Assembly (NCBI GenBank): GCA_902800815.1
Contig: CADCGB010000003.1
Location: 62,001-126,000, forward strand
Direction of reading: 5' to 3'
From: Fibrobacter succinogenes
GTDB taxonomy: Bacteria > Fibrobacterota > Fibrobacteria > Fibrobacterales > Fibrobacteraceae
DNA: 64,000 bases
This document shows positions 52,480 to 53,333 of the stretch, one piece after another. The translations under genes were made by a program, and so were the position numbers. The notes beneath the pieces are model-generated. The model was not told the origin of the DNA, ran no database searches, and saw only the letters and a program-made list of their open reading frames with translations. Each line of letters begins with the position of its first letter. Within the stretch, counting starts at the first letter, position 1.

Positions 52480-52508
52480 TTGAAAATTTTCCGTCAATAA
52501 CCTATATT
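52480..52508 (+). promoter_or_regulatory. Sigma70-like promoter for the queuosine-transporter mRNA
   Basis: TTGAAA at 52480-52485 and TATATT at 52503-52508 are separated by 17 bases, an ideal spacer. TATATTTG also fits the window's TAnnTTTG pattern. Transcription would start near 52515, giving a leader of about 66 bases. Confidence 0.65.
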
Positions 52509-52546
52509 TGGCGCGTTAGAATTCTGCGATGTTGCAGGATTTTTCC

Positions 52547-52580
52547 GGAAGTCTTTGTCTAACCTTCCTTAAAAAACAAA
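52547..52580 (+). ncRNA. Class-I preQ1 riboswitch-like pseudoknot
   Basis: P1 is GGAAG (52547-52551) with CUUCC (52564-52568). Loop 1 starts UC, then UUUGU (52554-52558) can pair with ACAAA (52576-52580) as P2, and loop 2 ends UAAC, where C52563 stands at the preQ1-pairing position. Loop 3 is UUAAAAA, the usual A-rich strand. Compared with the T. tengcongensis aptamer, U and C after P1, the UAAC, and the A-rich tail before C are all kept. P2 ends right at the ATG of a queuosine-precursor transporter gene, so ligand binding would hide the start and lower translation. The aptamer class is inference from shape and context. Confidence 0.72.
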
Positions 52581-53333
52581 ATGAAAAGCTATATCCAGCG
52601 TGAATGGCAGGACTTGGTTATCCTGCTTCGCAACATTCCCTCCCTCGCCGTCAGTTTCTTTATCCTCTCCGTCGTGTGCATGAACTTGCTCGCGAACAAG
52701 GAACTTGTATCGTTTGAATACATGGCACTTGACTGCGGCTTTACGCTCAGCTGGTTCTCCTTCCTCTGCATGGACATGATATGCAAGCGGTTCGGGCCCA
52801 AGGCTGCCATGAAGGTCTCGGTGGTCGCCCTCTTCGTGAACCTGTGCACCTGCCTGTTCTTCAACATCCTTTCGCATGCGCCGGGAATGTGGGGCGAATT
52901 CTACAGCTACATCGACACGAACCCCGATGCGGCCAAGGTCGCAAACGACGCCCTCAACGCCACGTTTGGCGGCTCCTGGTACGTGGTGCTCGGTTCTGCG
53001 CTCGCGATGTTCACCGCCTCGTTCGTCAACTCCGTCGTAAACTACGGCATGGGGAAAATCGCAAGGGGCAAGGACTTCAAGACGTTCGCCGCTCGTTCCT
53101 ACGTATCGACGATGGTCGCGCAGTTTGTCGACAACATGATTTTCGCCCTTACGGTTAGCCACGTATTCTTTGGCTGGACCATGAAGCAGGTCCTTATCTG
53201 CTCCATTACGGGCTCCGTCATGGAACTCCTCTGCGAAGTCGTCTTCAGTCCCTTCGGATACAAGATGGCCTGCAAATGGGAAAAGGAAAACGTCGGTAGC
53301 GATTACCTCAAGTTCAAGGCAGGTCAAGCATGA
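52581..53333 (+). CDS. Queuosine-precursor transporter (VUT/YhhQ family)
   Basis: 250 residues with about six membrane helices. The VUT family pattern is seen in VVCMNLLANKELV and LDCGFTLSWFSFLCMDMICK, then ALAMFTASFVNSVVN, and VAQFVDNMIFAL. Members import preQ0, preQ1 or queuine for tRNA modification. There is no Shine-Dalgarno; the sequence before the ATG is the tail of the riboswitch-like pseudoknot. The stop overlaps the SDR start by 4 bases (ATGA). Confidence 0.87.
   Translation: MKSYIQREWQDLVILLRNIPSLAVSFFILSVVCMNLLANKELVSFEYMALDCGFTLSWFSFLCMDMICKRFGPKAAMKVSVVALFVNLCTCLFFNILSHAPGMWGEFYSYIDTNPDAAKVANDALNATFGGSWYVVLGSALAMFTASFVNSVVNYGMGKIARGKDFKTFAARSYVSTMVAQFVDNMIFALTVSHVFFGWTMKQVLICSITGSVMELLCEVVFSPFGYKMACKWEKENVGSDYLKFKAGQA

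Follow-up and report, generated by a model that had tools for sequence, protein, structure and literature searches.

A 33-nt H-type pseudoknot resembling class I preQ1 (preQ1-I) aptamers is located at positions 52547-52579 of the DNA analysed here, a 64-kb stretch (the window) from the rumen bacterium Fibrobacter succinogenes, and it stands at the start of a transporter gene of the VUT family. We read this element as a class I, type II-like preQ1 riboswitch which represses translation of a preQ1 importer, with a probability of about 0.88. For this reading, we infer the identity of the ligand, the direction of regulation and the step that would be blocked. The features of the locus are as follows.

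52480 to 52508, plus strand: promoter-like site TTGAAA-N17-TATATT, a consensus match only (10 of 12 positions)
52518 to 52543, plus strand: hairpin P0, 11 bp with an AUGU/AUGG loop, predicted by folding, directly upstream of the aptamer
52547 to 52551, plus strand: 5' strand of P1, GGAAG, pairing with 52564 to 52568
52552 to 52553, plus strand: L1, corresponding to U6 and C7 in the numbering of the Thermoanaerobacter tengcongensis (Tte) aptamer, invariant in all Fibrobacteraceae copies
52555 to 52557, plus strand: 5' strand of P2, UUG, invariant, with its partner at 52577 to 52579
52558 to 52563, plus strand: L2, UCUAAC, ending in the specificity cytosine C52563 after an A, which is the type II signature
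52564 to 52568, plus strand: 3' strand of P1, CUUCC
52569 to 52576, plus strand: A-rich L3, UUAAAAAA, in which A52576 is the counterpart of the ligand-contacting A29 of Tte
52577 to 52579, plus strand: 3' strand of P2, CAA, invariant, in which C52577 is the counterpart of C30 of Tte
52581 to 53333, plus strand: queuosine-precursor transporter gene of the VUT/COG1738 family, the proposed target of the riboswitch, with orthologues 55-98% identical

The element has the order of an H-type pseudoknot, namely P1, L1, the first strand of P2, L2, the second strand of P1 (P1'), an A-rich L3 and the second strand of P2, with a P2 of three invariant pairs. All the letters on which an earlier note on this DNA had relied were present, from GGAAG at 52547-52551 through the ATG at 52581. 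The 5-bp P1 GGAAG/CUUCC and the UC at 52552-52553 were as described there, and UAAC ending at C52563 and UUAAAAA from 52569 were both found in the sequence. The 5-bp P2 of that note (UUUGU at 52554-52558 with ACAAA at 52576-52580) was also present in letters, but only the three pairs of UUG/CAA were conserved. The outer pair U52554-A52580 was not kept: many relatives have A.C at this place, and F. intestinalis has A.A. The inner U52558 and A52576 more likely do not form a true pair, because the position of A52576 contacts preQ1 in solved class I structures.

Like the Tte aptamer, the element has a complete set of pocket bases: G52551-C52564 corresponds to G5-C16, U52552 to U6, C52553 to C7, G52557 to G11 and C52577 to C30. 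C52563 and A52576 are the counterparts of C15 and A29, and L2 is 2 nt longer than that of Tte. C52563, the floor pair G52551-C52564, U52552 and A52576 did not vary in any copy. In class I aptamers U6 touches preQ1, and in the Tte aptamer the L3 adenine contacts the ligand (PMC11625349). Type II aptamers are marked by AC before the 3' strand of P1, and type I aptamers by UC at that place and UU after P1 (PMC11625349); all copies of our element have the type II signature, with UC after P1 and AAC before P1'.

A motif descriptor (5-bp P1 ending in G; UC or UU; 3-bp P2; [AU]C before P1'; A-rich L3) matched only the site at 52547-52579 when both strands of the window were searched. About 0.4 matches per strand would be expected by chance in random 64-kb sequence of the same dinucleotide content, and the probability that 120 nt of random leader with this composition contain the motif was about 0.0016. 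These statistics indicate that the motif is more than chance, and its conservation in relatives is far stronger evidence. In a first search the motif was found at the start codon in all 14 same-genus genomes with a close transporter (77-98% identity). A motif model run over 168 Fibrobacterota genomes added copies in two sister-genus genomes, one of them matching the F. intestinalis locus, and gave nothing convincing beyond Fibrobacter and these two. Outside Fibrobacteraceae the custom model R1 gave weak matches (E of at least 0.001), which were dropped, the motif being absent from them. No motif was seen at VUT genes of the phylum that are less closely related (L022-L034, about 30% identity). 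In three divergent lineages the motif was 91-97% identical to that of the window, compared with 25-56% for the 80 nt upstream; for L021, the motif was 91%, the 80 nt upstream 25% and the coding region 82% identical.

The earlier note had named covariation of the two stems as a check. For P1, pairing was kept through changes on both sides. In the most diverged lineage, L021/L053, P1 is AGAAG/CUUCU, a compensatory change from G-C to A-U, and an A-U pair of the window is replaced by C-G in leaders from Olsenella, again compensatory. When the Fibrobacter and Olsenella type II-like leaders were aligned together, two of the five P1 pairs had changed on both sides with 100% of cells paired, and none of 500 shuffles reached as high a value in cells paired or in covariation score; within Fibrobacteraceae alone a single P1 pair covaries. 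The P2 pairs were invariant throughout the alignable set, so covariation neither supports nor refutes P2.

We searched GTDB genomes for orthologues of the transporter and found them, at 54-67% identity, in F. intestinalis, Bacteroidales, Clostridia, Mogibacterium, Collinsella and Olsenella. A preQ1-I-like pseudoknot leader was present within 140 nt upstream in 62 of 68 non-Fibrobacter orthologue loci; among shuffled leaders the count was 2 in 3,400. Of the five Bacteroidales loci without a leader directly upstream, at least four have a preQ1-I-like one ahead of the gene that precedes the transporter gene. In the non-Fibrobacter leaders P1 reads AAGCAG, GAGCAG, GCGCUG or GCGGAG, and the complementary strand is present each time. 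Most of them show the type I-like signature UUC...UC, those of the Olsenella group the type II-like UCC...AAC. The leaders tested from Clostridia, Collinsella and Olsenella gave no score in an E-value scan with the Rfam preQ1-I model, RF00522, probably owing to loops longer than those of the model, and were assessed by the descriptor with shuffled controls. The preQ1-I label of the leaders outside Fibrobacter thus rests on signature and context, and we regard them as candidates.

In four Bacteroidales loci (L079, L080, L081 and L085; L078 has the same gene pair), the gene upstream of the transporter encodes a protein of about 200-235 amino acid residues with a signal peptide-like start, for which a Pfam search gave no match. 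A preQ1-I-like leader precedes the gene of this protein, which may therefore serve in precursor uptake as a partner in the outer membrane.

A conserved A-rich site for ribosome loading or protein binding, with a hairpin formed by chance and no riboswitch, would agree with the absence of covariation in P2, and initiation independent of a Shine-Dalgarno (SD) sequence would likewise be compatible with A-rich letters ahead of the ATG. We consider this explanation next to negligible, as it leaves unexplained the invariant bases of L1 and L2, the compensatory changes in P1 and the preQ1-I-like leaders in other phyla.

A search with the Rfam model had also been suggested for the element, and here the outcome was negative: RF00522 gave it 14.8 bits, under the gathering cut-off of 39, which is a database threshold and not a defining feature of the class. 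Over the whole genome RF00522 gave noise-level matches only, and scans of the window and 15 orthologue loci at gathering level gave no matches. In Fibrobacter genomes with their own preQ1 synthesis, textbook type I preQ1-I-like leaders were found at queC and at queF-vut operons, as listed here.

L148, near position 1383, plus strand: type I-like leader
L150 and L151, minus strand: type I-like leaders
L160, positions 11 to 57: type I-like leader
L162, positions 3435 to 3388: type I-like leader
Several among L165-L183: further type I-like leaders

These leaders, for example GUCAG-UUCGAAACCCAUC-CUGAC-UUAAAACAAAACUAGGAG, are near the type I consensus and carry a clear SD sequence. Those tested scored 19-26 bits with RF00522 against the same cut-off of 39. 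Because the cut-off also misses type I leaders of the same genus, the 14.8 bits are no argument against membership of our element in the class; the cut-off hides preQ1-I riboswitches in Fibrobacterota.

As expected of a class I element, the pseudoknot precedes a gene of queuosine synthesis or transport. The ORF at 52581-53333 matched Pfam Vut_1 (PF02592) with an E-value of 7.4e-24, in agreement with the VUT transporter assigned in the earlier note, and NCBIfam TIGR00697 (queuosine precursor transporter) with 1.7e-9, below the curated cut-off. Both tgt and queA are present in all 44 genomes of the genus with a completeness of 90% or more. No gene of the window genome scored above cut-off for queF or queC, and the carriers of switch and transporter keep tgt and queA and mostly lack queF and queC. 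Among these 44 genomes and three of the sister genus, switch and transporter occurred in 11 of 13 genomes without queF and in 2 of 34 with queF (Fisher p 3e-7, a value inflated by kinship, since related genomes are counted and independence is overstated). The sister genus follows the same pattern, with two members that have the switch and no queF and one that has queF and no switch. The exceptions are G036 and G140, which have the switch together with queC/queF; G147, 87% complete, has both the switch and queF.

In organisms with tgt and queA and no queF, preQ1 is the sole salvageable precursor for TGT (PMC5372724). The transporter is therefore most likely an importer of preQ1, and preQ1 is most likely what the switch senses. 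The same fold could bind another ligand such as preQ0 or queuine: VUT members also import preQ0, with subgroups possibly specific for preQ0, preQ1 or queuine (PMC5372724), and the Tte type II aptamer binds preQ0 too (PMC11625349). However, preQ0 cannot feed TGT in carriers that mostly lack QueF, the QueA that the carriers keep is not needed for salvage of queuine, and the pocket bases match those of aptamers that bind preQ1; we judge a different ligand highly improbable. The central claim of the earlier note, a class I preQ1 aptamer at the start of the transporter gene, is thus supported, with preQ1 as the predicted ligand, by the pocket bases, the P1 compensation, the leaders in foreign phyla and the loss of queF and queC in the carriers.

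Two further observations were made on the pathway. In the Fibrobacter genomes G026 and G139, queF is missing and the sole VUT gene is a distant one. In G026 this gene is about 30% identical, and its surroundings gave no preQ1-I-like leader; perhaps the two genomes salvage by another route. A second full-length tgt-like gene is present in nearly all 44 Fibrobacter genomes, with both copies above the TIGR00430 cut-off.

The earlier note had P2 ending at the ATG itself. The adjacency stands, and the exact abutment does not hold here, where the ATG follows P2 after 1 nt (0, 2 or 5 nt in relatives). It had also stated that no ribosome binding site lies between aptamer and ATG, and this was so in all copies: no SD motif was found between P1 and the ATG in any of them, nor, consequently, the occluded SD by which SD-occluding riboswitches are recognised. 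SD motifs were found for 14 of 45 window genes, compared with 3 of 45 in a background stretch, and 37% use is tabulated for the class Fibrobacteria (PMC10783764). The organism thus uses SD motifs for part of its genes, and the transporter gene is one without.

Farther upstream, the TATATT of the promoter-like site is kept among F. succinogenes-type leaders. P0 was 98.9% paired by cells in eight leaders, with two pairs changed on both sides, and it is absent from the L021/L053 lineage; P0 is therefore not essential and no part of the aptamer. We can only guess that P0 keeps the U-tract off the A-tract of L3, or that it shields the 5' end. Pairing of the U-tract with the A-tract was considered as an alternative apo state and rejected: it lost to P0 when a longer leader was folded, and the position of the U-tract is not kept in L021/L053.

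With 0-5 nt from the end of the aptamer to the start codon and no terminator-like site found between aptamer and gene, control at translation initiation is likely. A preQ1-I riboswitch acting mainly on transcription, by ligand-controlled pausing or termination, with the adjacency to the ATG incidental, has a precedent in some type II aptamers such as that of B. subtilis, where the pseudoknot stabilises pausing (PMC11625349), and U residues do follow the hairpin P0. These U residues, however, belong to the P0 stem, upstream of the aptamer, and with 0-5 nt to the ATG in every copy there is no room for a terminator or antiterminator, in line with the negative search for a terminator-like site. 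We regard control mainly at transcription as very unlikely.

For a riboswitch acting on translation we propose the following mechanism. At low preQ1, P1 would be formed and P2 unstable, which would leave the A-rich start region UUAAAAAACAAAAUG open, and the ribosome would initiate without an SD helix. At high preQ1, the ligand would pair with C52563, be held by U52552 and A52576, and stack between P1 and P2, so that the pseudoknot would be locked, with the A-tract docked along P1 and CAA paired beside the AUG. The 30S subunit would then be unable to place the start codon, and the importer would be switched off. The block would come from the folded knot at the start region and not from masking of an SD sequence. 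A natural preQ1 riboswitch that represses translation without any SD, in which L3 serves both as part of the pocket and as ribosome-loading stretch and the fold reaches the start codon, is the arrangement toward which we lean. Such an SD-less translational switch was predicted by a 2024 review, which calls these switches hard to find.

The element shares with the Tte preQ1-I type II riboswitch a 5-bp P1 with a closing G-C pair, the UC that follows P1, the AC ahead of the P1 3' strand, an A-rich L3, and a ligand-contacting A whose 3' neighbour is a C pairing with G11; control at translation, known for Tte, is inferred here. Unlike Tte, which buries the first two bases of its SD sequence, the window element has no SD, and its P2 is UUG/CAA, running straight to the AUG. 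Like the preQ1-I type III riboswitch of E. coli yhhQ, it is a very small aptamer with AC before the 3' strand of P1 at a gene of the same transporter family, but yhhQ has UU after P1 and a complete SD in P2, where the window element has UC and no SD. The type I-like leaders of Fibrobacter queC and queF-vut (L148, L150, L151, L160 and L162) share genus, pathway and overall architecture with it; they differ in their UUC/UC signature, in their tail ACUAGGAG with a clear SD, and in standing at biosynthesis genes, while the window genome is without queC and queF. The Olsenella/Coriobacteriia leaders (L107, L115 and L145) are likewise type II-like (UC, AAC) and precede an orthologous transporter 54-57% identical, but their tail ACCGGGAG appears to pair the SD into P2.

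The riboswitch class is already known; the new parts are the phylum and the SD-less, start-adjacent arrangement. Fibrobacterota is not among the phyla named in the 2024 review, and no paper combining 'preQ1 riboswitch' and Fibrobacter was found within the library searched. With 33 nt and a distance of 0-5 nt from the start codon, the locus is a concrete, testable case of an SD-less switch, for which the type I preQ1 leaders with SD sequences found in this genus provide a comparison set. It also points to a preQ1-salvaging branch of rumen Fibrobacter.
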